DNA of 64,000 nucleotides from Caloramator sp. E03 (GTDB lineage: Bacteria; Bacillota; Clostridia; Clostridiales; Caloramatoraceae). Below the pieces are notes generated by a model. That model was not told where the DNA came from, made no database searches, and saw only the letters and a program-made list of their open reading frames with translations. Where the stretch lies: the NCBI RefSeq assembly GCF_006016075.1, contig NZ_CP040093.1, forward strand, positions 2,583,501-2,647,500, given 5' to 3'. Of the stretch, positions 2,893 to 18,362 are shown piece after piece (the first letter of the stretch is position 1; every line of letters starts with the position of its first letter). The position numbers were made by a program, and so were the translations under genes.

Positions 2893-2910
2893 TTGGCATA
2901 AAAATTGCAT
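2893..2910 (+). promoter_or_regulatory. Candidate sigma-54 (-24/-12) promoter
   Basis: TTGGCATA at 2893-2900 and TTGCAT at 2905-2910 place the invariant GG and GC dinucleotides exactly 10 bases apart, the spacing required by sigma-54 RNA polymerase. It is the only such match noticed in the island's intergenic regions, and a sigma-54 activator is encoded at 16938-18362. The predicted start lies about 300 bases before the PhlG-like gene, so the leader would be long. Confidence 0.5.
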
Positions 2911-3219: not shown

Positions 3220-3840
3220 GTGAAAACAAAATTAGTACAAGATGCAATGGGAACACACTTGGATTGGGAGCATGAAGGAATCACTCCTAAGATGATTGAT
3301 TGGTTTTGGAGCAATATGGAAAAGGGTTTTCTTTTATGGCATCCAGACCAGCATGAACCATTAACCTGGGCAGTACCACCAAAGCATGGTAACCCAATAG
3401 GCTCAATACATATAGCACCTCAAACATGGTCTGATGGTACAAGGCAAAATCTTTATATAAGATTTGAGGATCTTGCCAATATACCAGCAGAAGTTAAGGA
3501 ATATATAGTATATGAACACTGTGTTGTTGTAGCTGGCCTTGGATTTGGTCCTGAAAGCATGAAAAATACAGAACCTATGGGATATCGTATACATCAGTGG
3601 CAGAAAACTGATTATGGTGTTGTTGGAAGATCATCAGCGATTGGTATGAAAAAGAAAGAAAAACCAGAAGAGGGCCTTATATGGGCAAAACATTGTGAGG
3701 AAGAGATAGGAAATTGGGGAGTGTTTTTACCACAGCTATATAATTTATATAAAGTTGTTAAAAATACTGACTATAACCCTTTTGCAGATCTCACAGTTGA
3801 AGGTAAAGGAAAGGATTTGAGATATAAATATATTAAATAA
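3220..3840 (+). CDS. DAPG/phloretin hydrolase-family C-C hydrolase (PhlG-like)
   Basis: Resembles the zinc-dependent hydrolases PhlG (2,4-diacetylphloroglucinol hydrolase) and Phy (phloretin hydrolase), which cut a C-C bond next to a ring-bound ketone. Family hallmarks visible are DWFWSNMEKGF and LLWHPDQH at residues 27-45, a histidine in RIHQW near 125, and HCEEEIGNWGVFLPQLY from about 157, whose Glu matches the family's C-terminal zinc-ligand region. At 206 residues it is shorter than PhlG or Phy (about 290-310). The start is GTG at 3220, eight bases after AGGAGG; an upstream in-frame start at 3157 lacks a good site. It sits alone, convergent with the PucR-type gene, in an island with a chalcone-isomerase homologue, which points to polyphenol cleavage. 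Substrate inferred. Confidence 0.7.
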   Translation: MKTKLVQDAMGTHLDWEHEGITPKMIDWFWSNMEKGFLLWHPDQHEPLTWAVPPKHGNPIGSIHIAPQTWSDGTRQNLYIRFEDLANIPAEVKEYIVYEHCVVVAGLGFGPESMKNTEPMGYRIHQWQKTDYGVVGRSSAIGMKKKEKPEEGLIWAKHCEEEIGNWGVFLPQLYNLYKVVKNTDYNPFADLTVEGKGKDLRYKYIK

Positions 3841-3886
3841 AAATAGTTATAGTATTACAATAGAGTTTTTTAACCTAATTAGCGAA

Positions 3887-3902
3887 AGAAGTTGCAACTT
3901 CT
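3887..3902. repeat. 16-bp perfect palindrome
   Basis: AGAAGTTGCAACTTCT reads the same on both strands. It lies between the convergent PhlG-like and regulator genes, upstream of a separate terminator hairpin. Its role is unknown; an operator or the remnant of a mobile-element end are both possible. Confidence 0.5.
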
Positions 3903-3942
3903 ATATGCGGGGTCAGTGCACAGGTAAGAGTTAATATTAAAA

Positions 3943-3982
3943 TTGGGTAGGTAACAGAATATATTACCTACCCAAAATTTTC
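3943..3982. terminator. Bidirectional terminator between convergent genes
   Basis: A 12-bp perfect stem, TTGGGTAGGTAA at 3943-3954 and TTACCTACCCAA at 3964-3975, flanked by A- and T-rich tracts on each side, serves both the PhlG-like gene and the regulator gene on the other strand. Confidence 0.75.
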
Positions 3983-4021
3983 AAAAGGATATATTTAATA
4001 ATAAATAGTTTTTTTATCATC

Positions 4022-5569
4022 CTAATCTATTGACTGGAACTCACCAAGATATTCTAAAACTTTAAATGAATTATATAAAAGAGAAATTGTCTTTCCATCA
4101 TCTAAATTGATATTTAACATGTTTTGAATTTTTTCAATACGAAATCTCATAGTATTGTGGTGTATGAATAGTTTTTTAGCAGACAAACACATATTTAATC
4201 CAGATTCTAAATAAGTAAATAAAGTTAATGTATATTTTGTGTGATTTTTATTATCAAATTCAATTAAGTTTAATAAAGGCGGATAGCAAAGTTCTTTTAT
4301 GTCGATTTCATTAATACATAAACTTAAAGCATGATAAATTGCATATTCTTCGTATAAATAAACTGAATTTTTTCTTTTTAAGTGTTCCGCAGAATCAATT
4401 GCAGCTAAACATTGCCTTAAGTATTTTTTTAAATTATCAATTTTGTTAAAATTTATGCTTATACCACACTTTAGCATATATTTAGAAGCAATTGCTTCAA
4501 GACTTTCAATAAATTTTTTATTTATCACTTCTTCGTTATTAGATTCAATAATTAAAGCTATGCCATCGTTAAATATAACCGATTTTGAATTGCAAATCTC
4601 TGCATCCAAAACGTTTTTAATATAAACAAGAGGAATATTAAAATTATCTTTTTGATTATATACAAAATATAGCAATCTAAGATTCTTTTTTGGAAGCCAG
4701 CCTAATGTTTTTAACTTTTCTTCAATAGTTAAAGGATCATTAAGCTCGTTATTCAATAATCTAATTATAAAATGTTCATGTAGTTCTCCCTTTGTATTAT
4801 GAAAGAAATTGTTTTTGTTTAATTCATAAGAGATAATTTTACCTAAATATTCTGTAAGTTCAAGGTCTGAATCTAAAAATGGCCTGACTCCCTCATTTAA
4901 AGCTACATGTCCAACTATTTTTCCATCTATATAAATGTTTGTCATAAGTATCCTGTTTTTATAGAATGAAGGATGAATAATAATTGGGCTGGAACTTTTA
5001 AATACTTTTTCAATATATTTTCCTACTTTAAGCTGTGCAATATTTTTATAAGTATTAAATCCTTGTTTTATATGATCGGTCCATTCGGGATCGTCTACTT
5101 CAGGCCCATTTGTATAGGCAATTAAGGTAAAAATAGTATCTATGACATGGATTGGATTGGTTAATAATTTTTGACCAATATTTAGTATTTCCAATATTCC
5201 TTTATTATCAAATAATGCTTGAAGTAGTTGAACAGACCATTCAATATAAATATTTATTATGTTATTAATTGTATTATAGATTTTAAATATATCATCATTG
5301 CTTATAAGAAAAATTATTGTTCCACAAATATCAAAATCCGGAAGTTCATCTTGGCATTCAGGCAAAACAATTATGAAATTTCCCTGAGGTTTTAATAAAA
5401 TTATATCTTTAAAATCAGAAAAATTCCCAATATATAAACAATCAGATTCAAATACTGATTGCTTTTTTTCTATTAATTTAGCAAATTTTATTGAAGTATT
5501 ATTTAGCTTTTTAATAACAAAATTATAATCGCTTAGTTTATCTAATATCATTTGAATACTTATATTCAT
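4022..5569 (-). CDS. PucR/CdaR-type transcriptional regulator
   Basis: A 515-residue protein with the PucR layout: an N-terminal purine-catabolism-like sensor region, a central GGDEF-like/GAF-like segment, and a C-terminal helix-turn-helix of the HTH_30 type, seen as LFIHHNTMRFRIEKIQNMLNI near residues 460-485. PucR proteins usually activate adjacent catabolic genes in response to the substrate. The gene is transcribed divergently from the MDR gene and convergently with the PhlG-like gene, so it is the natural local regulator of the island. The ATG is preceded by AGAGGTAAT. The ligand cannot be read from sequence. Confidence 0.75.
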   Translation of the reverse strand: MNISIQMILDKLSDYNFVIKKLNNTSIKFAKLIEKKQSVFESDCLYIGNFSDFKDIILLKPQGNFIIVLPECQDELPDFDICGTIIFLISNDDIFKIYNTINNIINIYIEWSVQLLQALFDNKGILEILNIGQKLLTNPIHVIDTIFTLIAYTNGPEVDDPEWTDHIKQGFNTYKNIAQLKVGKYIEKVFKSSSPIIIHPSFYKNRILMTNIYIDGKIVGHVALNEGVRPFLDSDLELTEYLGKIISYELNKNNFFHNTKGELHEHFIIRLLNNELNDPLTIEEKLKTLGWLPKKNLRLLYFVYNQKDNFNIPLVYIKNVLDAEICNSKSVIFNDGIALIIESNNEEVINKKFIESLEAIASKYMLKCGISINFNKIDNLKKYLRQCLAAIDSAEHLKRKNSVYLYEEYAIYHALSLCINEIDIKELCYPPLLNLIEFDNKNHTKYTLTLFTYLESGLNMCLSAKKLFIHHNTMRFRIEKIQNMLNINLDDGKTISLLYNSFKVLEYLGEFQSID

Positions 5570-5644
5570 TGATATTACCTCTATTAAAATTAATAAAATA
5601 AAACATTAGTATAGCCTAATTTTATAATTTTATATTATACATGT

Positions 5645-5660
5645 CAATTGTTTGCAATTG
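5645..5660. promoter_or_regulatory. Candidate regulator operator in the divergent promoter region
   Basis: The dyad CAATTG-TTTG-CAATTG lies in the 215-bp gap between the PucR-type gene and the MDR gene. Part of it, AATTGTTTGC, also occurs at 3104-3113 before the PhlG-like gene, as expected of a shared PucR site. Confidence 0.35.
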
Positions 5661-5784
5661 TGAAAATATAAAAATATTAATGAAAAAAATTAATTTTTAT
5701 AACAATGATATTATAATTGCGTTGTGATAAATTAAGATTAATTCAGACAATTTTGAAATTTATAATGGAAAAGGAGATGAAAAT

Positions 5785-6828
5785 GTGAATACTCTGTATG
5801 CTGTTGCAGAATATGGGAAGGTAGTTTTGAAAGAAAAAGAAATCCCAGATCCAGGACCGGGACAGTTATTGCTTGAGGCTGAATTTAGTTCTTTAAGTCC
5901 AGGAACTGAACATGATTTAATGGCTGGACATATTCTACCTTTACCACAAAACATTGGCTATAGTATGGCTGCACGTGTAATAAAGGTTGGAGAAGGCGTT
6001 ACTGATTATAAAGTAGGTGACCAAGTTGTAACTACTGGTCAACATGCTCAGTATTTGTTAATGGATGCACATAATGTTACTCCAGCACCTAAAGGGGTTG
6101 ATATGGAACAGGCTGCATTTTTTAACTTAGCACATACAGGTATGTATGCCGTAAGAAGAACAAAAATCCAGTTAGGTGAGCCAGTTGTTGTTATGGGACA
6201 AGGGTTAGTTGGTGCTATAGCTGCTCAATTGGCAAAGCTTGCTGGTGCATTACCTGTCATTGTTACTGATTTAGATGACAGGCGCCTTGAAATTGCAAAA
6301 AAGATGGGTGTTCATTATGCTATCAATCCTAAAACTAATCCTAACGATTTAAAAAATGTTATTGATAGTTTAGGGACAAATGGTGTTCCAGTAGTCATTG
6401 AAGCAACAGGTGCTCGTCAACCATTAGAAGAGGCTTTTGAAATTGTTTCAGAACGAGGAAGGGTAATGATGTTGTCGCAAGCACACGGTAATGATGCACC
6501 TAAATATGATCATAACCTTATGATGAAGGGGGCTACACTAATTGGTGGATATATCAATTCTAAGCCTTTTGCTTTAAGACGTTATGATTTAATGATAAAG
6601 GAACAATGGCCGCCAGTAATATCAGATAATTCATCACGATACGTAAATTCTGATGTTTGGACAAGTGATGAGGATATAAGGGTAATATTGAACTTAATAA
6701 AATATGGTTCACTAAATTTGAAACCATTGATAACTCATCGTTTTAGTGTTGAACAAATTTCAGAAGCTTATGATTTGGTATGGAGAAAAGATACAAGCTT
6801 AATAGGCGGTGTAATTTGTTGGAAATAA
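5785..6828 (+). CDS. MDR-family NAD(P)-dependent dehydrogenase/reductase
   Basis: A 347-residue medium-chain dehydrogenase/reductase. The N-terminal GroES-like domain carries DPGPGQLLLEAEFSSLSPGTE; the usual catalytic-zinc Cys position is replaced by the SPGTE pattern of a non-classical subgroup. The Rossmann motif GQGLVGAIAAQLAK is near residues 138-151, with VTDLDDRRLEIAKKMG following. It could oxidise an alcohol or reduce an enone; in this island, reduction of the chalcone double bond is an attractive but untested idea. GTG start with AAGGAG eight bases upstream. It heads a cluster with the SnoaL-like, VOC and MFS genes. Confidence 0.75.
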   Translation: MNTLYAVAEYGKVVLKEKEIPDPGPGQLLLEAEFSSLSPGTEHDLMAGHILPLPQNIGYSMAARVIKVGEGVTDYKVGDQVVTTGQHAQYLLMDAHNVTPAPKGVDMEQAAFFNLAHTGMYAVRRTKIQLGEPVVVMGQGLVGAIAAQLAKLAGALPVIVTDLDDRRLEIAKKMGVHYAINPKTNPNDLKNVIDSLGTNGVPVVIEATGARQPLEEAFEIVSERGRVMMLSQAHGNDAPKYDHNLMMKGATLIGGYINSKPFALRRYDLMIKEQWPPVISDNSSRYVNSDVWTSDEDIRVILNLIKYGSLNLKPLITHRFSVEQISEAYDLVWRKDTSLIGGVICWK

Positions 6829-6872
6829 AAAATTATGAATTAAACATTAACTGTTTAGGAGGAGGATTATAA

Positions 6873-7514
6873 ATGGATATAAAATCGCTTGAGTTAAAAG
6901 TTTTAAAAAGTGAAGCATATCAAAAAATACAAAATGTTATGGGAAGATATGCTTATATGCTTACAGCATGTAAATATGATGATATATGTGAGCTTTTTAC
7001 TAAGAGAGAAGATGTAAGAGTTGAAATGAACTGGGGCGTATATGAGGGATATGAAGGGGTAATAAGATGTTACGCCAAATATCATAAAAATGAAGTTGTA
7101 GGACCTGGAACAATGGCTGTACATGCTTTATCAACTCCTGTTATTGAAATTGCCGATGATTTGCAGACAGCAAAAGCTGTTTGGATATCACCAGGTCATA
7201 TTACAGGAGGAATGTTTTCTAAAGATAAAAAGATAAAGGCTCACTGGGCTTGGATGAGATATGGCTGTGATTTTGTAAATGAAGATGGTGAATGGAAAAT
7301 ATGGCATCTTCATGTATATGGATTATTCATGACTCCATTTGATAAAAGTTGGGTAGAAATTGGAGATGCTCATGAAATAGAAGAATTTCCACCGGAGTAT
7401 GCTCCAGACAGGCCGCCGACATATTCATGGGCATATAGTCCAACAAGGACAACAGAATATGTCCCTGCACCTCCAAAACCATATTCAACCTTTGACCCTA
7501 ATGATGCATATTGA
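6873..7514 (+). CDS. SnoaL/NTF2-like fold protein
   Basis: A 213-residue protein. Residues 15-150 look like the NTF2/SnoaL cone fold: an N-terminal helix with IQNVMGRYAYMLTACKYDDICELF, then VYEGYEGVIRCYAKYHKN, and the C-terminal strand region GEWKIWHLHVYGLF. The tail is rich in Pro, Tyr and Thr. Such proteins include polyketide cyclases, dehydratases and aromatic-ring isomerases, so a role in isomerising or dehydrating a polyphenol intermediate fits the neighbours but is inference. It has a near-ideal AGGAGGAGG ribosome site and lies 44 bp after the MDR gene. Confidence 0.65.
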   Translation: MDIKSLELKVLKSEAYQKIQNVMGRYAYMLTACKYDDICELFTKREDVRVEMNWGVYEGYEGVIRCYAKYHKNEVVGPGTMAVHALSTPVIEIADDLQTAKAVWISPGHITGGMFSKDKKIKAHWAWMRYGCDFVNEDGEWKIWHLHVYGLFMTPFDKSWVEIGDAHEIEEFPPEYAPDRPPTYSWAYSPTRTTEYVPAPPKPYSTFDPNDAY

Positions 7515-7559
7515 TAAATTCTGTTTGCATTAAAAAATGAATAAGAAAGAGTGAAGAAG

Positions 7560-7967
7560 ATGAAGAAAATATACAAACCATTACATGTTGGTATAAGTGT
7601 TTATGACATAGATGAAGCAATAAAGTGGTATGAAAAAAATCTGGATTTTGAGGTTGTTAAGGATTTCTATGTTCCGGTGCTTAAAGCTCGTATTGCATTT
7701 ATTAGAAATGGAAATTTTGAAATTGAACTCTTTGAATATGATAAGCCAAAACCTATTCCACAGGAGAGGTTAATCCCAGATTTGGATTTACAAACAGTTG
7801 GAACTAAGCATATAGCTTTAGAAGTAGATGACATGAAATGCGTAAAAGAAAAATTTTTAGCAAATAACGTGGATATTGTTCATGAAGTAATAATGGAAGG
7901 CGATTTAGTAATGTTTATTAGAGATAATTCTGGAGTTTTAATTGAGCTTATTCAAAAGAAACAGTAA
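7560..7967 (+). CDS. VOC-family (glyoxalase/dioxygenase fold) protein
   Basis: About 135 residues with the classical VOC half-domain pair: HVGISVYDIDEAIKWYEKNLDFEVV at the start, FIRNGNFEIELFEY, then GTKHIALEVDDMKCVKEKF and a C-terminal MFIRDNSGVLIELIQ. Candidate metal ligands are the His of HVG, Glu of IELFE, His of KHIALEV and Glu of LIELIQ, the standard HEHE pattern. Members include methylmalonyl-CoA epimerase, glyoxalase I and ring-cleavage enzymes; the substrate here is unknown. ATG at 7560 is preferred over an in-frame GTG at 7551 because of spacing to AAAGAG. Confidence 0.75.
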   Translation: MKKIYKPLHVGISVYDIDEAIKWYEKNLDFEVVKDFYVPVLKARIAFIRNGNFEIELFEYDKPKPIPQERLIPDLDLQTVGTKHIALEVDDMKCVKEKFLANNVDIVHEVIMEGDLVMFIRDNSGVLIELIQKKQ

Positions 7968-8093
7968 TAATTAAGGTATTTTGAGGCAAGAATATTTTTC
8001 AAACTTGTAGTGCAATTTTATTATCTTCAATAATTGTAAATATATAAAAACACTTGATTTAAAAAATTAAATTTTAAAAATGAGGGTGAAAAA

Positions 8094-9401
8094 ATGTTTA
8101 AAAATAAAAAGTTTGCACGTTATTCAATTATATTTATGATTTTAGGTGTAATTTACATGTTTTTCTACTCAGGCTTGCAGAATGACCATATAAATATTTT
8201 GCAGCCATATTTAAAAAGTACTTATGGCTGGACAGATTTGCAAATTACAAACCCTGTAACTTATGGAAGCATTGTTGTTATAGTATTTTATTTACTTTGT
8301 GGAACTGCATTTGTTAAATTTGGAGTTAGGAAATTCATGGTTCCATGTATGATAGTTTTAGGTTTAGCATGTATTGGTTTAGCTTTGGCAGGAGATAACT
8401 ATATTGTTTATGCAATTAGTTTATTTGTAGTTCGTGTTTTAGTTGTTCCACTACAAATGGGTGGCTTTATGTTATGCGCTAACTGGTTTATAAAATATCG
8501 TGGTCGTGTTATGGGAGTAATTACAGCAGGAAGCCCACTATTTTCTGTTGTTGGTATTAATGTTTTAACAAGACTTGCAAACAGCGTTGGAATTAGATCT
8601 TCATATATTGTTATAGGTATAATTATTTGTTTAATAGCTGTTTTAACTGCAGTATTTATGAAGGATAAGCCAGAAGATGCCGGACTCTATCCAGATGGTT
8701 CAGACACTCCTCCAGTTTCTGAAGGAGCTGAAGAATCTGAAGATGTTACATTTAAAGAAATTATTACTGATAAACGTGCATGGCAGTTAATAATTTCTTA
8801 TGGAATATTGCAATTCGTAATTAATGCTATGATGGCTTATATGGCGGTACGTTATATTTCTCTAAGTACTGAAAATGATATTCCTAATCTTTTTGTATCA
8901 AAAGCAATTGTGTATTTATCAATAGGCGCTATTCTTGGTATACCAATGAGCTATGTTTTAGGGTGGATTGATGATAAGTTAGGTTCAATGAAAGCTTCTT
9001 TAATATTGAATATATTATTCCTTTTTGCAGTTGTTCCTTTGGCAATTATGCCAAAAGGAGGTAATACAGTATTAATGCTTATATGGGCCTTTGGAGTTGC
9101 TTGTATGACTGGTGGATTACCAACAATGCATCCTTGTGTTACATCTTATGTTTATGGCCGTAAGAAGTATCAAGCTGCTAACAGGTGGATTATGACAATT
9201 CAGGCAATACCATTTGCATTCTCTGTTGCTTACATGGCTGCAATGAACCAGATTGGAAAGCTTACAGAGGCATATTATGGATTATTAATACTACTTGCAA
9301 TATCCTTTATTACGATTTTAACTATGTTAAAGATTCCAGATGCTAATGAAGCAGACCGTGACTATATCAAGGAAAATAAGACTTCTTCTTATCAAGCTTA
9401 G
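8094..9401 (+). CDS. MFS transporter, probable importer of the island's substrate
   Basis: A 435-residue membrane protein with about 12 hydrophobic segments, a first cytoplasmic loop containing FVKFGVRKFM, and KYRGRVMGVITAGSPLF as the conserved segment before helix 5. The central loop is acidic (GAEESEDVTF). The pattern resembles the OFA/monocarboxylate branch of the major facilitator superfamily. Its position between degradation genes suggests uptake of an aromatic acid or polyphenol, or export of a product. GAGGGTG ribosome site before the ATG. Confidence 0.8.
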   Translation: MFKNKKFARYSIIFMILGVIYMFFYSGLQNDHINILQPYLKSTYGWTDLQITNPVTYGSIVVIVFYLLCGTAFVKFGVRKFMVPCMIVLGLACIGLALAGDNYIVYAISLFVVRVLVVPLQMGGFMLCANWFIKYRGRVMGVITAGSPLFSVVGINVLTRLANSVGIRSSYIVIGIIICLIAVLTAVFMKDKPEDAGLYPDGSDTPPVSEGAEESEDVTFKEIITDKRAWQLIISYGILQFVINAMMAYMAVRYISLSTENDIPNLFVSKAIVYLSIGAILGIPMSYVLGWIDDKLGSMKASLILNILFLFAVVPLAIMPKGGNTVLMLIWAFGVACMTGGLPTMHPCVTSYVYGRKKYQAANRWIMTIQAIPFAFSVAYMAAMNQIGKLTEAYYGLLILLAISFITILTMLKIPDANEADRDYIKENKTSSYQA

Positions 9402-9481
9402 TAGAAAAACTGACATAATAAGTTTTAAGGTTATTTAAACAAAGCAACTTAAAAGCCTCAAAATACCTTTTTATTTAAAAA

Positions 9482-9528
9482 AACGGTAGTTAATGGAGGT
9501 TAGTGATATATTCCAATTAACTGCCGTT
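9482..9528 (+). other. Long hairpin after the MFS gene
   Basis: AACGGTAGTTAAT pairs with ATTAACTGCCGTT as a 13-bp stem (one G-U pair) around a 21-base loop. No clear T-run follows, so it is a weak terminator or an mRNA-stabilising structure rather than a classical terminator. Confidence 0.5.
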
Positions 9529-9630
9529 GAATTATTGTATTTTAAGACAAAGAATAATTTATTATGTTAGTAAAATGCACATTGAAAATTAAAAATATAA
9601 ATTTTAAAATATTAAAAAAGATTGATACAA

Positions 9631-9674
9631 AATCGATTCTTGCTGATACAATATTGTATCAGCAAGAATCGATT
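9631..9674. promoter_or_regulatory. 44-bp perfect palindrome, candidate operator 1
   Basis: Positions 9631-9652 are the exact reverse complement of 9653-9674. The core is GCTGATAC-N6-GTATCAGC. It lies about 160 bp before the chalcone-isomerase-like gene in a gap with no convincing gene, and shares its core with the dyad at 9704-9727. Confidence 0.75.
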
Positions 9675-9703
9675 AAATTCAAATCTTTTTATAGGATCGA
9701 ATT

Positions 9704-9727
9704 AGCTGATACGATTTCGTATCAGCT
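9704..9727. promoter_or_regulatory. Second dyad with the same core, candidate operator 2
   Basis: AGCTGATACGA at 9704-9714 and TCGTATCAGCT at 9717-9727 form an 11-bp perfect inverted repeat with a 2-bp spacer. The core GCTGATAC-N6-GTATCAGC is identical to that of the first dyad; the dyad centres are 63 bp apart, six turns of B-DNA. Confidence 0.75.
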
Positions 9728-9836
9728 CAAGCTAATAAGCTATAGCTTAATAGTTATAATATCAGAAAATTCATCATTTACTTTTGGCATGTAAATTGCT
9801 TAATTTATAGGCATAAATGTAGAAGGAGGATTAATC

Positions 9837-10658
9837 ATGCAAGTTAATCTGATGAGAAGTATCATACTCAATTGTGTGAGGGAAGAGAATGATTTACCAG
9901 CTGCATACCGTTGGCTTTATAAGTATCATGTTGCAGACAGCATATCACAATTTGCACCCTATGTATCTAAATATGCAACTTATAGAGCTTTACCTGTTCC
10001 ACCAGATGGAGAAGATTTTGGCACATACAATTGGATTATGACAGAACATTATTGGCTTATTAATCCTTTTGAGAATATAGCATCAAACATGCCAAGAGGA
10101 CTTGCTTTTTCAGAATATTATACTCCAGAATTCTTAGAAATAACAAATCAGCCACCACAAGCTGAATTAAGATCAAGGGAATGGGTTGGAAGCAGAAATG
10201 GATATCATCCTATAGTATTTAGTTTTATACCTTTGTTTTGGGAAAATGATTTTAAAGGAAGTCAAAGAACAATAGAGGATGGTCCAAACTATAGATGGCT
10301 TATCGTATTTAAGTATCCAGAATGCATTACAAGAGAAGAAGGAGATGACTGGTTCATAAATGTACTTGCTCCACAAATTGCAGAGCTTAAAGAGGTAAAC
10401 AGGTTTGTTAGCAGTGCAGTTTTAAAAGAACCTCAAACCTCACCATTCCATAGAGTTGCTGAGATATGGTTTGATGATAGTAAAGCATGGCATAGGGCTA
10501 TTGTGGAAAATAAACATAAGTTTACAAAACCAGGCTGGGCACAATATGGACAGTTCCCATTCATGGAGCCCTATAAAGATTTTGTAGGGATTTTCTTGCT
10601 TGATAGACCTGAATCTGATCACCTACAACAATTTAGAGGCTACATAACAACAAGATAA
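9837..10658 (+). CDS. Bacterial chalcone isomerase homologue (Eubacterium ramulus CHI type)
   Basis: A 273-residue protein resembling the chalcone isomerase of Eubacterium ramulus, an enzyme of two ferredoxin-like (dimeric alpha/beta barrel) domains unrelated to the plant fold. Shared landmarks I recall are the N-terminal MRS block, KYHVADSISQFAPYVSKY (catalytic-region His at residue 31), MTEHYWL (His71), GSQRTIEDGPNYR, AEIWFDD and the C-terminal RGYIT-R. In the known enzyme the reaction interconverts flavanone and chalcone, the entry to dihydrochalcone and phloretin-type cleavage. The segment between the domains looks shorter than the lid loop of the E. ramulus enzyme. AGGAGG lies seven bases before the ATG. 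Homology confident; substrate unproven. Confidence 0.8.
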   Translation: MQVNLMRSIILNCVREENDLPAAYRWLYKYHVADSISQFAPYVSKYATYRALPVPPDGEDFGTYNWIMTEHYWLINPFENIASNMPRGLAFSEYYTPEFLEITNQPPQAELRSREWVGSRNGYHPIVFSFIPLFWENDFKGSQRTIEDGPNYRWLIVFKYPECITREEGDDWFINVLAPQIAELKEVNRFVSSAVLKEPQTSPFHRVAEIWFDDSKAWHRAIVENKHKFTKPGWAQYGQFPFMEPYKDFVGIFLLDRPESDHLQQFRGYITTR

Positions 10659-10704
10659 AAATTATATTAAAATAAATAAAATTTAAAGATTGGGGGATTT
10701 TTTT

Positions 10705-11667
10705 ATGAAAATTTTAGGAATATCATGTGGAAGAAGAATGGGCAACACAGAAATACTTGTAAAAGAGGCATTAATGGGTGCCCAGGAACTTGGTGCAGAG
10801 GTTGAATTTATACGCCTTGGAGACTTAAATCTTAAGCCTTGTACAGGATGTAATGCTTGTGTTGTAAACCTCTTTGAAAAGGCTGGAACTGGAGAATGCG
10901 TAATAAAAGATGACGATTTTGCATTTATTGACGAAAAAATATTAGAATGTGATGGATTAATACTTGGTTCACCAATTTATGAAAAAAGCCCAAGTGGTCA
11001 GTTAAAGATATTAAATGACAGAATGGGGCCATCACATGATTATGCATTTAGATTGATTGCTAAAAAAATTCGTGAAGAGAAAAATATAACTACTGGTAAA
11101 GGTCCAGATGAAAGATCATTTAAGATAAGAGCAGCTTCTTTAATAGCAGTTGGAGGAAGTGAATGGGATAACTTTGCACTTCCAATGCTTCATTTGTTTA
11201 CACTCTCATGGCAGATGGAAGTTGTTGATAAATTTCTTGTTAATTGGGTAGCACTTCCTGGAATGGTTGCATTAAAGGAAGATATATTAAAAAGAGCAAG
11301 GATGTCTGGAAGACATGTAGCTGAAACATTAATGAAACCAATAACTGAAGCAAAATATATTGGTGAAGAAGGCGTATGCCCAATATGCCATTCTAAGCTA
11401 TTTGAAATAAGAAATTCTAAAGATAATTATCCTGTTGTTTGTGGAATTTGTGGAGTAAAAGGAACACTTAACGTTATAGATGGTAAGGTTAAATTTGAAA
11501 TAAGTGAAGAAGAAAAATCTAATTCTCATGTTACTTTATCAGGAAAGTTCAAACATGCTGATGAGCTTAACAATATATCATTAAAGCCAGCTCCAAATGC
11601 TCATGAATTGCCACAAAGATTAGAAAAATATAGAACATATTTAACTTACTCAAAACCTCAGCGTTAG
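10705..11667 (+). CDS. Flavodoxin-fold NAD(P)H:FMN oxidoreductase with C-terminal zinc ribbon
   Basis: About 320 residues. The N-terminal half is a flavodoxin-like fold of the NADPH-dependent FMN reductase/iron-sulfur flavoprotein type: MKILGISCGRRMGNTE (phosphate loop), CTGCNAC and LGSPIYEKSPSGQLK. The last third carries CPICH and CGICG (about residues 225-249), a rubredoxin-like zinc or iron site. It may pass electrons to, or directly reduce, an unsaturated aromatic intermediate. It follows the chalcone-isomerase gene by 46 bp, so the two are likely co-transcribed. ATG at 10705 follows GGGGGA; an upstream TTG overlaps that site. Confidence 0.75.
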   Translation: MKILGISCGRRMGNTEILVKEALMGAQELGAEVEFIRLGDLNLKPCTGCNACVVNLFEKAGTGECVIKDDDFAFIDEKILECDGLILGSPIYEKSPSGQLKILNDRMGPSHDYAFRLIAKKIREEKNITTGKGPDERSFKIRAASLIAVGGSEWDNFALPMLHLFTLSWQMEVVDKFLVNWVALPGMVALKEDILKRARMSGRHVAETLMKPITEAKYIGEEGVCPICHSKLFEIRNSKDNYPVVCGICGVKGTLNVIDGKVKFEISEEEKSNSHVTLSGKFKHADELNNISLKPAPNAHELPQRLEKYRTYLTYSKPQR

Positions 11668-11771
11668 TTAGAGGAGTAAAAGAGGGAATATAAACTTTGA
11701 AAATAAATTAATATACGAAAACTATAAAAGCAACAAATTCAGATTTAATTATAGTTGAGAAGGGATGAACA

Positions 11772-12677
11772 ATGGAGTTTAGAAATTTTAATGAATTGAT
11801 AAATAAAGTTCAAAATTCAAACAAAAAAAAGAAAGTAGCTGTAGTTGCTGCCCATGATGAACATACTTTAGAGGCTGTAATTAAGGCAATGAATGATAAC
11901 ATTGTTGAATCTGTTCTAATTGGGGACAAGCATAGAATAGAAGAAATATTAACTAAACTAAATTTTAATATTAATGATAGTAATATTATTGATATACATG
12001 ATGACAAAGAGGCAGCAATGAAAGCTGTAGAGCTGATAAGGGAAAATAAGGTCGATTTTATAATGAAAGGAAAAATTCAAACTGCAGACCTGTTGAAGGC
12101 TGTAGTTAATAAAGAAAAAGGGTTAAGAACAGGAAATATAATGTCCCATATTGCAATACATGAGATTCCTAACTATCACAAGCTTCTTGCTGTTACAGAT
12201 GGTGGAATGATGATGTATCCAAATTTAGATGAAAAGAAACAAATAATTGAGAATGCTGTTAATACATTTTTAGCAATGGGATATGAGAAACCAAAGGTTG
12301 CAGTTTTGGCAGCAGTTGAGAATGTAAATCCAAAGATGCCAGAAACATTAGATGCTCAAAATTTAAAGCTTATGAATCTAAATGGAGAAATTAATAATTG
12401 TATTGTAGAGGGACCAATTTCTTATGATATAGTTATGAGTAAAGAATCTGCAAAAATTAAGGGATTTGAAAGCCCTGTTGTTGGGGATGCAGATATATTA
12501 GTGGTTCCTAATATTACAGCAGGTAATATTTTAGGGAAGTCCCTGGTTTATTCTGGAGGAGCTAAGATGGCAGGGTTTATTGTAGGTGCTAGTGTACCTA
12601 TCGTATTAACTTCAAGAGGTTCATCTTCTGAAGAAAAATATCTTTCTTTAGTGTTATCTGCATCGCTGAATCAATAA
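11772..12677 (+). CDS. ptb: Phosphate butyryltransferase-like acyltransferase
   Basis: A 301-residue enzyme of the phosphate acetyl/butyryltransferase family, converting an acyl-CoA and phosphate into an acyl phosphate. Landmarks are VAVVAAHDEHTLEAV, VDFIMKGKIQTADLLKAV, GNIMSHIAIHEI and the C-terminal KMAGFIVGASVPIVLTSRGSS. It precedes iorA by 26 bp and works with the butyrate-kinase-like enzyme at 15770. The acyl group may be butyryl, branched-chain or arylacetyl; the iorAB neighbours favour the last, by inference. Confidence 0.9.
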   Translation: MEFRNFNELINKVQNSNKKKKVAVVAAHDEHTLEAVIKAMNDNIVESVLIGDKHRIEEILTKLNFNINDSNIIDIHDDKEAAMKAVELIRENKVDFIMKGKIQTADLLKAVVNKEKGLRTGNIMSHIAIHEIPNYHKLLAVTDGGMMMYPNLDEKKQIIENAVNTFLAMGYEKPKVAVLAAVENVNPKMPETLDAQNLKLMNLNGEINNCIVEGPISYDIVMSKESAKIKGFESPVVGDADILVVPNITAGNILGKSLVYSGGAKMAGFIVGASVPIVLTSRGSSSEEKYLSLVLSASLNQ

Positions 12678-12703
12678 ACTTAAAATTGATTGGAGGAATA
12701 GTT

Positions 12704-14482
12704 ATGAAGGAATTGCTAACAGGAAATGAAGCAGTTGCACGTGGTGCCTATGAGGCTGGAGTTGTTTATGCCTCTGCCTATCCAGGAACTCCAAGCACTG
12801 AGATAATGGAGACTATTGCAACATATAAAGGAGATATTATTGCAGAATGGGCTCCTAATGAAAAAGTTGCCCTTGAGTCTGCAATAGGAGCATCTATAGC
12901 AGGTGCAAGAACTCTTGCTTCAATGAAGCATGTTGGTTTAAATGTAGCTGCAGATCCTCTATTTACATTTGCATATACAGGAGTAAATGGAGGAATGGTA
13001 ATAATTAGTGCAGATGATCCAGGTGTTCATTCATCTCAGAATGAGCAGGATAATAGAAATTATGCAAAGTTTGCAAAGATACCAATGCTTGAACCAAGTG
13101 ACAGCCAAGAGGCAAAGGATATGGTAAGATATGCTTTGGAAATCAGCGAAAAATATGATACACCAGTTTTAATGAGGATGACTACGAGAGTATGTCATAG
13201 CAAATCATTGGTTGAACTTGCTGAAAGAAATAATGTACCTAAAAAACCTTATGTAAAAAATCTTCAAAAATATGATGCGGTACCTGCAGTTGCCAAGATA
13301 CTTCGCGAGAAGATAGAAGAGAGATTAAAAAAGCTTGAGGATTTTTCAAATGAAACTGAGCTTAATTTTATAGAGATGAATGATAGTAAAATAGGCGTTA
13401 TAGCTTCAGGGGTAGCTTATCAGTATGCTAAGGAAGTTTTTAAAGATGGTGCTTCATATTTAAAAATAGGCTTTAGTTATCCACTGCCTATGAAAAAAAT
13501 AAAAGAATTTGCAAGTAAGGTTGAAACGCTATATGTAATAGAAGAACTTGATCCTTTTATGGAAGAACAGATTAAGGCGGCAGGTATAAAATGTATAGGT
13601 AAGGAAAAAATTCCTGCTATGGGGGAATTAAATCCTGATATAATAGCAAAAAATTTACTTGGAAAAGAGAATAGAGTAATTGAGTATGACCGCTCAATTG
13701 TTGCTAAAAGGCCTCCTGTGCTTTGTGCAGGGTGTCCACATAGAGGTTTCTTTTATGATCTTACAAAGAGAAAGGATATAGTTATTACAAGTGATATAGG
13801 ATGCTATGGTTTAAGCAGCCAGCCTCCACTTAATGCAAAAGATACAAGTATATGTATGGGGGCAGGTTTTAGTATGGCCCATGGTGCACAAAAGGTATTC
13901 AATAAGTTCAATGAAAAAATGAAAACTGTTGCAGTACTTGGGGATTCAACATTTTTTCATTCAGGAATAACAAGCCTTCTTAATGCTGTATATAATAAAA
14001 GCAATGCTGTATTTTGTATCTTAGATAATAGAATAACAGGAATGACAGGACATCAGGAGAATCCTGGAACAGGATTTACTCTTCAAGGGGATCCAACAGT
14101 AATAACTGATATTGAAAAAGTTGTAAGGGCATTAGGGGTTGAAAATGTTAGAACTGTAAATCCTTTAGAAATCTCAGAGATGAAGGATGCAATGGATTGG
14201 GCATTATCTAATGAAGAGTTAACTGTTATAATAACTAAATGGCCTTGTGTACTTAAAAAACTTTCCCAAAAGGACAAAGATGATTTTGGTGATTATAAAG
14301 GTTTATGTTATGTTGATGATAACAAGTGTATTGGCTGTAAGATATGCATAAAGACAGGATGTCCAGCCCTTAAATATGATAAGAAGTTGAATAAGGTTTC
14401 AATTGATAAAACTCAGTGCGTAGGTTGTAAACTTTGTGTACAAGTATGTCCCAAAAAGGCTATTAGTAAGGTAGGTGAATAA
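12704..14482 (+). CDS. iorA: Indolepyruvate:ferredoxin oxidoreductase, alpha subunit
   Basis: A 592-residue thiamine-diphosphate enzyme that oxidatively decarboxylates arylpyruvates to aryl-acetyl-CoA and reduces ferredoxin. N-terminal pyrimidine-binding region GNEAVARGAYEAGVVYASAYPGTPSTE; VLGDSTFFHSGI and NRITGMTGHQ form the ThDP/Mg segment; the tail holds two 4Fe-4S motifs, CIGCKICIKTGCP and CVGCKLCVQVCP. ATG at 12704 lies after GGAGG; an in-frame TTG at 12686 overlaps that site. iorB follows immediately. Its presence between ptb and buk suggests substrate-level ATP formation from 2-oxo acids. Confidence 0.93.
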   Translation: MKELLTGNEAVARGAYEAGVVYASAYPGTPSTEIMETIATYKGDIIAEWAPNEKVALESAIGASIAGARTLASMKHVGLNVAADPLFTFAYTGVNGGMVIISADDPGVHSSQNEQDNRNYAKFAKIPMLEPSDSQEAKDMVRYALEISEKYDTPVLMRMTTRVCHSKSLVELAERNNVPKKPYVKNLQKYDAVPAVAKILREKIEERLKKLEDFSNETELNFIEMNDSKIGVIASGVAYQYAKEVFKDGASYLKIGFSYPLPMKKIKEFASKVETLYVIEELDPFMEEQIKAAGIKCIGKEKIPAMGELNPDIIAKNLLGKENRVIEYDRSIVAKRPPVLCAGCPHRGFFYDLTKRKDIVITSDIGCYGLSSQPPLNAKDTSICMGAGFSMAHGAQKVFNKFNEKMKTVAVLGDSTFFHSGITSLLNAVYNKSNAVFCILDNRITGMTGHQENPGTGFTLQGDPTVITDIEKVVRALGVENVRTVNPLEISEMKDAMDWALSNEELTVIITKWPCVLKKLSQKDKDDFGDYKGLCYVDDNKCIGCKICIKTGCPALKYDKKLNKVSIDKTQCVGCKLCVQVCPKKAISKVGE

Positions 14483-14483
14483 T

Positions 14484-15059
14484 ATGTGTGATGTAAAAAA
14501 CATACTATTATGTGGAGTTGGTGGACAGGGTACTATTCTTGCAAGTAAGATATTATCAACTTGCCTTGTTGATGCAGGATATGATGTAAAGATGTCCGAA
14601 ATACACGGAATGGCTCAAAGGGGTGGAAGTGTTACAACTCAGGTGCGTTACGGGAAAAAGGTATATTCACCAATTATAGGACGTGGTTCAGCAGATATAC
14701 TTGTTTCCTTTGAAGCAATGGAAGGCTTAAGATACCTTGACCAATTAAAACCAGAAGGTGTTGTTGTAGTAAATGACTATAAAATACCTTCATCAACAAT
14801 ACTTGCAGGATTAGAAGAATATCCTGAAGATGCTATAGAAATTTTAAAGGCAAAGGCAAAAACAAAAGTAATAGACGCAGGTGAAATTGCAAGCAGTTTA
14901 GGAAATCCAAAGGCAATGAATATTGTATTGCTTGGATCACTTGTAAAGCTTATGGGACTTGAAAGTTTAAATTGGAAGTCAGCAATAGAAAAATGTGTAA
15001 AGCCAGCCTTTGTTGAATTAAATATTAAAGCATTAGAAGAAGGAATGAATGCAGTATAA
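14484..15059 (+). CDS. iorB: Indolepyruvate:ferredoxin oxidoreductase, beta subunit
   Basis: A 191-residue gamma/beta-type subunit of the 2-oxoacid:ferredoxin oxidoreductase family, with NILLCGVGGQGTILASKIL at the N terminus and MSEIHGMAQRGGSVTTQVRYG, the signature of IorB. It forms the working enzyme with IorA. The start chosen is the ATG two bases after the iorA stop; an in-frame GTG nine bases earlier overlaps iorA. Confidence 0.92.
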   Translation: MCDVKNILLCGVGGQGTILASKILSTCLVDAGYDVKMSEIHGMAQRGGSVTTQVRYGKKVYSPIIGRGSADILVSFEAMEGLRYLDQLKPEGVVVVNDYKIPSSTILAGLEEYPEDAIEILKAKAKTKVIDAGEIASSLGNPKAMNIVLLGSLVKLMGLESLNWKSAIEKCVKPAFVELNIKALEEGMNAV

Positions 15060-15064
15060 TTTTT

Positions 15065-15099
15065 AAATTTGACACCACTTTTTAGTGGTGTCAAAATTT
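15065..15099 (+). other. Intercistronic hairpin between iorB and the membrane-protein gene
   Basis: GACACCACT / AGTGGTGTC with a four-base loop, extended by AT-rich arms, sits in a 61-bp gap inside the ptb-iorAB-buk cluster. There is no terminal T-run, so partial attenuation or mRNA processing is more likely than full termination. Confidence 0.55.
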
Positions 15100-15120
15100 A
15101 AATTTAAGGAGAGATAACGT

Positions 15121-15780
15121 ATGAAAAAAGGAGATTTTTTGTGGATATTTTTATTGTTAATTTGGGTAGCGATTTTAGTTATTCCATCATCAAGAGAAGT
15201 ATTTATTTTATCTACTAATGCCCACCCTTATATAGGTGGATTTATTAAATTTGCAATATTAGCTTCAATGGGAGATTTACTTGGTTTAAGGATTAAAAAG
15301 GGAGAATGGATTATTCCAAAAGGTTTTATTTTTAGAGCCATAATATGGGGTATTATAGGTATGATGGTTACACTTGTATTTACGGTGTTTATGGGCGGAG
15401 CAGCTGCAGCACAAGCTTCAAATAAACTTCCATTTAAAGGTTCACAGCTGGCACAGGCCTTTTTTGGAAGTGCAATTATGAATTTAACCTTTGGACCAAT
15501 GATGATGGCATTTCATAGATTTACTGATTTGTATATTGATGTTAAATACGAGAAAAAAGGAGAAAAGGTAACAATACATGAGCTGGTAGATAAAAATGAT
15601 TGGCACACTTTAGTGGAATTCAGCTGGCTTAAAACATGTCCTTTTTTTTGGATACCTGCACATACTATAGTGTTCTTGTTGCCTTCTGAATATAGAGTAT
15701 TAGTTTCTGCATTTTTATCAATAGCATTAGGACTTTTATTAGCAATAGCAAAAAAAGGAGGAGTAAAAAATGAAGTATAA
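15121..15780 (+). CDS. Mpv17/PMP22-like membrane protein
   Basis: A 219-residue protein with about five hydrophobic segments and a C-terminal pattern WLKTCPFFWIPAHTIVFLLP followed by YRVLVSAFLSIALG. This recalls the Mpv17/PMP22 signature (WPxxxxxNFxxxPxxxRV...W). Its function is unknown; possible roles are export of the acid product or a membrane-stress role. AAGGAGAG precedes the ATG, and its end overlaps the start of buk by 11 bp, so translation is probably coupled. Confidence 0.55.
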   Translation: MKKGDFLWIFLLLIWVAILVIPSSREVFILSTNAHPYIGGFIKFAILASMGDLLGLRIKKGEWIIPKGFIFRAIIWGIIGMMVTLVFTVFMGGAAAAQASNKLPFKGSQLAQAFFGSAIMNLTFGPMMMAFHRFTDLYIDVKYEKKGEKVTIHELVDKNDWHTLVEFSWLKTCPFFWIPAHTIVFLLPSEYRVLVSAFLSIALGLLLAIAKKGGVKNEV

Positions 15781-16837: not shown

Positions 16838-16937
16838 TAAAAAAATTACACAGTATATTTGATTTTTATGGCTAAGATTTGTTAAAATTAAATTAAAATT
16901 TAAACTTTTACTGCAAAGGGGGGCATATATAAAATAT

Positions 16938-18362
16938 ATGGATATTGATTTTTTTGAAATCAGCAATGCAATACCAGATGGTATATGTTTAACTGATAAT
17001 AAAGGTATTATACTTAAAGTAAACAAGAGATTTTCTGAGATAACAGGAATTGATTTTAAAGAGGCTGTTGGGAGAAGTATAGATAAGCTTCCATCACAGC
17101 CTTTTCTTGGGAAAATAAATGAAGAGAGCCAAGAAATTACATTAAGTGAAACTAACTTTAAAAATGTAATATCAATTATGTTTGCAAAACAAAAAAAGAG
17201 TATGTCCTCCTTATTTTATATTAAAAAGACAAATAAGCAGGTGCTTCTTACAATAAATCTATTAATGGATAGAGAAGGGAAGCTAAATCAAGTTTTGCAT
17301 GTGTTAAGGGATATGTCTGAAATAATAGAATTAAAAGAGAAGCTTGAAGATATAGAAAAGGAAAGAAACAGATATATAAATGAAATAAACTATCTTAGAA
17401 ATAATATAGTTGAAACAAAAAATTTAATTACAAATAGCAGCTCAATGAAAAAGGTAAAGGAAATAATAGATTATGTTGCAAAAACAGATGCCACTATTCT
17501 TATTACAGGAGAAACAGGATGTGGTAAGGAAGTTGTTGCAAATGAGATTCAATCTAAAAGCAATAGGAAAATGGAACCTTTTATAAAAGTTAATTGTGCA
17601 GCTATACCTGAAAGCTTAATAGAAGCTGAGCTCTTTGGCTATGAAAAAGGTGCTTTTACAGGTGCAGCACCAAAAACAAAAATTGGAATGTTTGAGATGG
17701 CTAATAATGGAACTATATTTTTGGATGAAATTGGTGAGCTTTCATTGAGTACTCAGACAAAATTATTGAGAGTGCTTCAGGAAAAAGAAATAATTAGAAT
17801 AGGTGGAACTAAAAGTATTAAGCTTGATGTCAGGGTTTTAGCGGCTACAAATCAGGATTTGCTTGAACTTATAAAACAAAGAAAATTTAGAGAAGATTTA
17901 TATTTTCGCCTTAACGTTGTACCAATAAAACTTCCACCTTTAAGAGAAAGAAGGGAAGATATACCTATTTTAGCATATCATTTTTTAAAAGAGTTTAATT
18001 TAAAGTATAATAAGGAAAAAGTATTTCACAATTCGGCAATAGTAGCTTTGGAATCATATAATTGGCCGGGGAATGTAAGAGAGTTAAAAAACATAGTTGA
18101 AAGACTTATAATCATTGATGATGATTGCCAGATAACAGCTGAAAAGATAAAGAACATAATAAATCAATATACAGTTACATCAAGTATTTCAAAGGGATTT
18201 ACATTGAAAGAAACTTTAAATATGGTTGAAAAGGAAATGATAGAGAATGCATTAAAAATATATGGAAGTACTCATAAGGCTGCGAAAGCTCTTGGAATAA
18301 CCCAGCCTACGGTATTTAGAAAAGCAAAGGCATTAAATATAAAGTTAAATGGTAAATATTAA
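16938..18362 (+). CDS. PAS-containing sigma-54-dependent activator
   Basis: A 474-residue enhancer-binding protein. An N-terminal PAS domain (DGICLTDNKGIILKVNKRF, residues about 10-115) is followed by a coiled linker, then an AAA+ domain with Walker A GETGCGKE near 191 and the sigma-54 contact loop GAFTGA near 238. The C terminus has a Fis-type HTH (GSTHKAAKALGITQPTVFRKA). Such proteins activate -24/-12 promoters. It lies downstream of buk and probably controls this locus; a candidate -24/-12 site is at 2893. The G-rich ribosome site is 14 bases from the ATG, an unusually long gap. Confidence 0.88.
   Translation: MDIDFFEISNAIPDGICLTDNKGIILKVNKRFSEITGIDFKEAVGRSIDKLPSQPFLGKINEESQEITLSETNFKNVISIMFAKQKKSMSSLFYIKKTNKQVLLTINLLMDREGKLNQVLHVLRDMSEIIELKEKLEDIEKERNRYINEINYLRNNIVETKNLITNSSSMKKVKEIIDYVAKTDATILITGETGCGKEVVANEIQSKSNRKMEPFIKVNCAAIPESLIEAELFGYEKGAFTGAAPKTKIGMFEMANNGTIFLDEIGELSLSTQTKLLRVLQEKEIIRIGGTKSIKLDVRVLAATNQDLLELIKQRKFREDLYFRLNVVPIKLPPLRERREDIPILAYHFLKEFNLKYNKEKVFHNSAIVALESYNWPGNVRELKNIVERLIIIDDDCQITAEKIKNIINQYTVTSSISKGFTLKETLNMVEKEMIENALKIYGSTHKAAKALGITQPTVFRKAKALNIKLNGKY

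Follow-up and report, generated by a model that had tools for sequence, protein, structure and literature searches.

A probable flavonol catabolism cluster with an energy-conserving arylpyruvate module in Caloramator sp. E03

FLR (flavone reductase) carries out the first step of flavone and flavonol breakdown, and in the Eubacterium ramulus/Flavonifractor route it acts together with chalcone isomerase (CHI), Fcr/enoate reductase and phloretin hydrolase (Phy). E. ramulus CHI converts taxifolin to alphitonin by means of His33, through a chalcone/diketone tautomer, according to passages of PMC9694015. Passages of PMC11170127 report that C. decagia converts quercetin, taxifolin and alphitonin to 3,4-dihydroxyphenylacetic acid (3,4-DPA), in line with descriptions for E. 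ramulus, and propose a phenylpyruvate-type intermediate from the products, 3,4-DPA in C. decagia and 3,4-dihydroxyphenyllactate in C. scindens. Formation of 3,4-DPA from quercetin has been explained by cleavage of alphitonin, but the enzyme responsible is called unknown in a passage of a 2025 paper (PMC12203004), and among the papers listed in open-access literature searches none was seen to name an enzyme cleaving alphitonin or an auronol. Here we analyze a 64,000-nucleotide stretch of Caloramator sp. E03 (contig NZ_CP040093.1, positions 2,583,501 to 2,647,500; the window), in which genes for a CHI homologue, an FLR homologue and a short hydrolase related to both Phy and PhlG (2,4-diacetylphloroglucinol hydrolase), called PhlG-like below, lie beside genes for indolepyruvate:ferredoxin oxidoreductase (IorAB), a phosphotransbutyrylase-type acyltransferase (Ptb) and a butyrate kinase family acyl kinase (Buk). 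We consider it probable that this cluster serves flavonol/flavanonol catabolism with its own energy-conserving tail; the reading is based on homologies, retained residues, gene linkage and promoter motifs, from which every substrate and product is inferred.

An earlier note on this DNA had described an anaerobic polyphenol-degradation island at 3220-11667. All eight of its open reading frames (ORFs) were found at about those coordinates, and its description as a polyphenol (flavonoid) degradation island with an unusual gene set held up. The boundary at 11,667 did not, as it omits ptb-iorAB-buk: the cluster extends on the same strand to about 18362 with ptb, iorA, iorB, a membrane protein gene, buk and a gene for a sigma54 activator. 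Pfam also supported the labels given to the PucR-type, MDR, SnoaL_4, VOC and MFS genes. The features, in window coordinates, are as follows.

2893..2910, + strand: sigma54 (-24/-12) promoter element before the PhlG-like gene, a perfect TTGGCAYN5TTGCWT match
3220..3840, + strand: PhlG-like C-C hydrolase, 206 aa, short subfamily, GTG start behind AGGAGG; matched to phloretin hydrolase/PhlG by profile and fold
4022..5569, - strand: PucR-type transcription regulator, divergent to the MDR gene; Pfam HTH_30, 47.4 bits
5785..6828, + strand: MDR oxidoreductase, threonine-dehydrogenase-related; Pfam ADH_zinc_N/ADH_N, best PDB matches are threonine dehydrogenases
6873..7514, + strand: SnoaL_4/NTF2-like protein; Pfam SnoaL_4, nearest solved relative the LdpA diarylpropane lyase (8abv)
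7551..7967, + strand: VOC protein, methylmalonyl-CoA-epimerase-like; Pfam Glyoxalase, TIGR03081 at 49.5 bits, below the cut-off of 115
8094..9401, + strand: MFS transporter; Pfam MFS_1, 110 bits
9784..9801, + strand: sigma54 (-24/-12) promoter element before the CHI gene, a perfect TTGGCAYN5TTGCWT match
9837..10658, + strand: CHI homologue of a divergent clade; Pfam Chalcone_N, His33 and Asp36 equivalents retained
10690..11667, + strand: FLR homologue; Pfam FMN_red, match to 7d38, ATG at 10705 likely
11772..12677, + strand: phosphotransbutyrylase-type acyltransferase (Ptb); Pfam PTA_PTB, TIGR02706 at 350.6 bits, under the equivalog cut-off of 410.5
12686..14482, + strand: indolepyruvate:ferredoxin oxidoreductase alpha (IorA); TIGR03336 at 732.8 bits, cut-off 650.9
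14475..15059, + strand: indolepyruvate:ferredoxin oxidoreductase beta (IorB); NF005325 at 268.7 bits, cut-off 230
15121..15780, + strand: conserved membrane protein, part of the ior-ptb-buk module, with homologues in the ior modules of L012, L036, L042, L056, L061 and L067
15770..16837, + strand: butyrate kinase family acyl kinase (Buk); TIGR02707 at 491.9 bits, cut-off 289.1
16938..18362, + strand: sigma54-dependent activator with a PAS domain; Pfam Sigma54_activat at 237.7 bits, PAS_9

In the pathway that we propose, FLR would convert a flavonol (e.g. quercetin) to a flavanonol (taxifolin), and the CHI homologue would act as a flavanonol ring-contracting isomerase, its His taking the C3 proton to give the open alpha-diketone/auronol (alphitonin). 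The PhlG-like protein would then perform a PhlG/Phy-type C-C hydrolysis of the auronol/diketone, breaking the bond that joins its carbonyl to the phloroglucinol ring. Because this substrate would be an alpha-diketone and not a dihydrochalcone, the acid released along with phloroglucinol would be 3,4-dihydroxyphenylpyruvate, an arylpyruvate, rather than an arylpropionate; the mass balance is C15H12O7 + H2O = C6H6O3 + C9H8O5. IorAB would convert the arylpyruvate to arylacetyl-CoA, CO2 and reduced ferredoxin, and Ptb and Buk would turn the CoA ester into arylacetate (3,4-dihydroxyphenylacetate, DOPAC) and ATP, Ior-Ptb-Buk being the usual route from arylpyruvate to arylacetate with ATP. Phloroglucinol would feed a pathway whose genes apparently lie elsewhere in the genome, at L015. 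Since the cleaving enzyme is reported as missing, the PhlG-like protein is a testable candidate. A bolder version of the proposal, which we find plausible but hold a little short of probable, makes it the missing auronol (alphitonin/maesopsin) cleaver, a Gln-for-Glu zinc hydrolase acting on an alpha-diketone and coupling flavonols to Ior-Ptb-Buk; in many genomes an LVIVD beta-propeller protein, not related to it, would fill the same role.

The first two enzymes matched solved structures of E. ramulus CHI and of FLR. The chalcone-isomerase homologue named in the earlier note at 9837-10658 was confirmed, with Chalcone_N at 102.5 bits (cut-off 25) and a match to E. ramulus CHI (3zph) at E 2e-56 over 6-273, near full length. 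His33 is retained in 32/32 aligned sequences, Asp/Glu36 in 32/32 (Asp in the window) and His73 in 30/32, including the window protein, which has Thr at the Gln101 position; the roles of His33, residue 36 and the substrate-side His73 in E. ramulus CHI are taken from passages of PMC9694015. In the tree the window protein grouped with Desulfobacteraceae, Fusibacter, Oscillospiraceae, Lachnospiraceae and proteobacterial sequences, in a clade apart from 18 canonical CHI (split 100/100). The reductase at 10690-11667 had been called flavodoxin-type, which was right as to class (FMN_red) but missed its FLR identity: it aligned to 7d38 (6-324/1-308, C-terminal tail included) at E 1.1e-60, with Glu91, Lys92, Asp103, Ser147, Trp149 and His271 the same and Met10, Ser14, Asn15 and Ile275 different. 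The FLR structures are 7D38, 7D39, 7D3A and 7D3B (passages of PMC7862272).

Other CHI-related genes were also seen. The CHI homologues of L007, L008 and L009 (Halotalea, Vibrio salinus and Rhizobiales), from the window's side of the tree, have an apparent signal peptide and LysR-type gene neighbors (both by eye). A second, short CHI-related protein (252-253 aa) adjoins VOC and CHI genes at L006:2340-3098 and L011:8758-9519; that of L006 scored 24.5 bits with Chalcone_N, slightly under the cut-off. Pairs of DUF1097 membrane proteins adjoin CHI (L044:8463-9053 and 6781-7296, with similar genes at other CHI) and perhaps transport a phenolic substrate or product.

The PhlG-like protein required more sensitive comparison. 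It scored 19.4 bits with Pfam DAPG_hydrolase (PF18089), under the gathering cut-off of 22.7, and a single-sequence search against the PDB gave no match. A profile built from 11 PhlG-like proteins and four longer relatives matched Mycobacterium abscessus phloretin hydrolase (5xe5) at 1.5e-24 and PhlG (3hwp) at 1.8e-19. With the AlphaFold model (pLDDT 89.1), the first three Foldseek matches were 5xe5, 5xey and 3hwp (E 1e-6 to 3e-6). VIA-align gave 3hwp a Z of 12.9, equal to that of Bet v 1/PR-10 folds, and did not separate PhlG from plant PR-10; fold alone thus does not prove membership in the PhlG family, and the sequence profile carries most weight. The columns of H45, H158 and E162 are retained in 17/17 aligned proteins (13 PhlG-like and four longer relatives). 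Of the four zinc ligands of PhlG, which we take to be His, Glu, His and Glu, one Glu column is occupied by Gln68 in 13/13 PhlG-like proteins and by Glu in 4/4 longer relatives. The PhlG-like protein therefore has the catalytic-domain fold, these three columns and the profile match in common with PhlG and phloretin hydrolase, but at about 206 aa, as against about 270-300 aa, it lacks their N-terminal part. The missing part and the Gln-for-Glu change led us to name a subfamily: judged from sequence, it is probably sister to phloretin hydrolase and works like PhlG, and is not a plain member. The earlier note was right to see a PhlG/Phy relative at 3220-3840.

Linkage of these genes was evaluated in an order sample of 225 genomes and a class sample of 391, with one genome, G000, common to both. 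Full-length PhlG-like proteins occurred in 6/225 order genomes and CHI in 10/225, all six among the ten; in the class sample, searched with a PhlG-like cut-off of E 1e-20, stricter than in the order search, the counts were 3/391 and 6/391, all three among the six. The hypergeometric probability of the co-occurrence was 1.2e-9 (order) and 1.3e-4 (class without G000), with relatedness of the genomes ignored. The order tally was reduced from 8/225 by excluding G040 and G055, whose matches (E ~5e-12, ORFs of 274-276 aa) were taken as canonical Phy; G116 has a second, weak match to a 263-aa protein (28% identity) that retains the Glu. In 8/8 PhlG-like genomes the PhlG-like and CHI matches lay on the same contig, 0.6-29 kb apart, and chance clustering of the two was rejected on this ground. 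A further search gave PhlG-like matches at 0.001 in 21/55 genomes, full length in only five (G605, G941, G945, G946 and G947). Conserved co-occurrence in other genomes, the check named in the earlier note, holds for CHI, PhlG-like and FLR. Four clusters had these gene orders.

L036 (18 kb): CtfAB-cupin-PGR-DPGC-TAL-sigma54-HAD-MCP-PhlG-like-sigma54-FLR-CHI-ptb-iorAB-membrane-buk
L056 (outside the window's order): buk-membrane-iorBA-ptb-sigma54-PhlG-like-LysR-CHI-FLR
L012: FLR-PhlG-like-CHI-buk-iorAB-ptb-membrane-phloroglucinol genes
L010: FLR-buk-CHI-PhlG-like-ptb

The most telling case is G605, from another family, where a PhlG-like gene (48% identity) lies 43 bp before iorA-iorB-ptb-buk and CHI is on a separate contig. 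Among the 11 PhlG-like loci seen first (the eight genomes plus L006, L010 and L012), ior genes lie within 25 kb in six, and ptb and buk in seven. Starting from CHI, a 2-oxoacid:ferredoxin oxidoreductase and ptb were found within about 11 kb in nine of the 14 CHI genomes of both samples. These arrangements include four order genomes with CHI but no PhlG-like protein (G110, G111, G113 and G135), which have CHI, FLR (37-39%), an LVIVD gene, ptb and a multi-subunit 2-oxoacid:ferredoxin oxidoreductase, its domains POR_N, TPP and POR confirmed in L047 and L046. The other five are G116 (a 28-kb contig, with IorA on another), G127 (no IorA match), G442 (contig ends), and G512 and G563 (none in 20 kb).

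The PhlG-like gene and the CHI-FLR pair are each headed by a sigma54-type promoter, as judged by motif match. The 64-kb window holds only two perfect TTGGCAYN5TTGCWT matches, where chance would give 0.02. One precedes the start of the PhlG-like gene by about 310 bp, the other that of CHI by about 35 bp. Across 386 kb of sequence in 22 related stretches, we counted 25 perfect core sites against 1.0 under a first-order random model; 23 are at labeled members of the gene set (ptb, iorA, FLR, CHI, Phy, phloroglucinol and neighboring transporter genes), including two that lie barely within ORFs whose start was taken at an early codon, and two are at unlabeled ORFs.

A number of observations weigh against the proposed pathway. 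The hydrolase has Gln in place of a Glu expected to bind zinc. The organism with established chemistry, E. ramulus, lies outside the genomes reached; a search with its CHI in the 6 genomes of the G382 family and the 349 of the G563 family gave a best identity of 77% and did not find E. ramulus. G127 has PhlG-like and CHI genes yet no IorA match at 1e-30. IorA matches occur in 76/225 order genomes, a count on which we rejected IorA as a pathway marker, and ptb-ior-buk, whole or partial, is present without CHI nearby in L060, L061, L064, L066 and L067, with an adjoining aminotransferase gene in L066 and one judged by eye in L064. Two ORFs of L041 (G038) that look aminotransferase-like by eye directly precede CHI and iorA, so a role in amino acid metabolism is possible there. 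Finally, nine ior control stretches carry eight sigma54 sites, six at iorA or ptb; L065 and L066, which are among these stretches, come from genomes with CHI elsewhere. The presence of sigma54 sites in ior stretches without CHI weakens any claim that they prove a regulon devoted to flavonoids: the sites unite the gene set but are not specific to it.

Several of these points could be accommodated by another reading, in which the genome has two hydrolases for phloretin (a dihydrochalcone), the PhlG-like protein being the second, and ptb-iorAB-buk, its neighbor by chance, serves aromatic amino acids as an independent Stickland-type module. The fold and profile in common with phloretin hydrolase fit this reading, as do the ior modules without CHI, the aminotransferase of L066 and the aminotransferase-like ORFs by CHI in L041, and the enzymes themselves are those of Stickland-type arylpyruvate oxidation (window IorA, IorB and Buk exceed their model cut-offs). 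We regard this explanation as unlikely. Unlike a Stickland-type module, the window's ior-ptb-buk genes sit with CHI, FLR and PhlG-like genes, and no aminotransferase was recognized by eye in window 3220-18362 or in the clusters of L012, L036 and L056. A PhlG-like gene precedes ior-ptb-buk in G605 and lies within 25 kb of ior genes in 6/11 first-seen loci, and there is a canonical Phy (264 bits) in the genome already, with relatives (36-72%) in three other PhlG-like genomes (G127, G116 and G100). The Caloramator genome also has a second IorA, 59% identical, outside this cluster. Because the ior module also occurs without CHI, its placement and not its mere presence is the argument: it is a general arylpyruvate tool, and its position beside CHI and PhlG-like genes speaks for an arylpyruvate product.

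A further set of contrary counts concerns the LVIVD protein. Among the 14 CHI genomes, eight have a PhlG-like protein, nine an LVIVD protein, three both and none neither; the six without a PhlG-like protein have the LVIVD protein instead. In family f4, CHI homologues were found in 47/349 genomes, only one of which has a full-length PhlG-like protein; an LVIVD gene was present in 26 of the 30 viewed as short loci. From the 6/14 and 1/47 counts, the PhlG-like protein cannot be the sole solution, and the two proteins may be alternatives. Conversely, the LVIVD beta-propeller might itself cleave the auronol, with the PhlG-like protein acting on another step of a phloroglucinol-bearing intermediate. 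The 26/30 linkage agrees with this, as does the pairing of LVIVD with an oxidoreductase-ptb module in G110, G111, G113 and G135, where PhlG-like is absent. Five of the eight PhlG-like genomes with CHI (G036, G100, G127, G382 and G442) lack an LVIVD match at 1e-10, however, as do two further CHI genomes, G945 and G947, from which L010 and L012 come; C-C hydrolysis beside a phloroglucinol ring is known PhlG/Phy family chemistry, and the presence of at least one of the two proteins in each of the 14 CHI genomes would also fit alternatives. We judge this explanation somewhat less likely still than a second phloretin hydrolase beside an unconnected module. Vibrio salinus (G943) has neither protein. 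In the window's own genome an LVIVD beta-propeller protein (Pfam LVIVD, 31.7 bits) is encoded near CHI at L014:10010-11389, about 1.508 Mb.

The proposed flavonol/flavanonol pathway also differs from the dihydrochalcone route of E. ramulus/Flavonifractor with which the earlier note had linked the island. In this genome (2.98 Mb, one contig), a second, canonical CHI (199 bits) lies at 1.507 Mb and the canonical PhlG/Phy (264 bits) at 1.210 Mb, in L015, the only locus over the PF18089 cut-off. Neighbors of Phy in L015 are an Oxidored_FMN reductase, a hydroxyacyl-dehydrogenase-like gene, TAL-, DPGC- and PGR-like genes and CoA transferases. None of the L015 Phy, Oxidored_FMN reductase, PGR-, DPGC-, TAL- or dehydrogenase-like proteins had a tblastn match in the window at 1e-3. 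The dihydrochalcone reading of the window was therefore set aside as the main reading; its canonical CHI and Phy are at two other loci. The window shares FLR and CHI homologues and a predicted phloroglucinol product with that route, but has the short PhlG-like hydrolase and an ATP-forming arylpyruvate oxidation module in place of a Phy or Oxidored_FMN match, and the presence of ptb-iorAB-buk points to the flavonol/auronol branch. The anaerobic phloroglucinol pathway of C. scatologenes consists of PGR, DPGC, a dehydrogenase and TAL (passages of PMC10470551). Genes with like labels occur at L015, where they were labeled by position and analogy with this pathway and not by direct protein comparison, and in or beside the clusters of L012, L036 and L039; in the window's genome they form a separate locus.

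Between the core genes lie MDR, SnoaL, VOC and MFS genes, which the earlier note had taken, as regards SnoaL and VOC, as possible signs of a variant pathway or another polyphenol. No perfect sigma54 site lies upstream of this group and a divergent PucR gene adjoins it, for which reasons it is probably a separate, PucR-controlled unit. A PucR homologue (32% identity) lies near CHI and FLR in L040; there (L040:4353-7000, G127) a 308-aa ORF, beside FLR and with no Pfam match, and the PucR-type gene stand between CHI-FLR and a second PGR-like gene set. VOC homologues (50% and 45%) occur beside CHI homologues in L006 and L011, and as a guess, by analogy with dihydrodaidzein racemase, the VOC protein might be a flavanonol C3 epimerase. 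The usual zinc ligands were not seen (by eye) in the MDR protein. SnoaL matched 8abv at E 2.7e-11 over 4-162, a low similarity; 8ABV is the LdpA lyase (passage of PMC11476836), which acts on a C6-C3-C6 compound, and its partner genes differ from those here.

On these grounds the island might target another C6-C3-C6 compound (an isoflavonoid, flavan-3-ol or lignin-type diarylpropane) by way of MDR and an LdpA-like SnoaL, leaving CHI, FLR and PhlG-like for later steps. That LdpA is the nearest solved relative of SnoaL, that the window CHI is in a clade apart from canonical CHI and that the four genes are located between core genes all agree with such a target. SnoaL and MDR, by contrast, were unmatched by tblastn at E 1e-5 in the 121 loci compared besides copies of the window region, whole genomes not having been searched for SnoaL, MDR or VOC, and they lie outside both sigma54-headed units; we hold this possibility to be very improbable. 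With a divergent PucR gene beside the group, its position outside those units and the lack of SnoaL and MDR matches, none of SnoaL, VOC, MDR and MFS is likely to catalyze or serve a step of the core pathway, contrary to the variant pathway that the earlier note considered.

Further features of the window were recorded. The membrane protein at 15121-15780, which gave no Pfam/NCBIfam match at the thresholds applied, is retained with ior genes even without CHI nearby (L061, L067) and is maybe an arylacetate exporter. A terminator-like hairpin at 15068-15095, in the gap between iorB and the membrane protein gene, may lower expression of the unit's end. The stretch 81-2816, on the 5' side of the cluster, encodes a DUF2229 protein of the CoA-enzyme-activase type along with a HutD protein; a terminator-like hairpin comes next, at 2833-2857. 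Transposase genes lie at 44687-45727 (Pfam DDE_Tnp_IS240) and 52537-53445 (Y1_Tnp, with a DnaA-C-like tail), and a near-identical copy of part of the former is found at the end of L014. Scans of the 64-kb window for tRNA and Rfam families gave no matches.

Quercetin is a major dietary flavonoid. If the proposed pathway is true, the side chain of a dietary flavonol would be an energy source, and the cluster would explain both the arylacetate product and the cell's gain of ATP and reduced ferredoxin. The cluster would also fit the intermediate that others proposed from the products (passages of PMC11170127). In genomes, a PhlG-like protein with Gln68, or an LVIVD gene beside CHI, would then serve as a marker for this branch of flavonoid catabolism.

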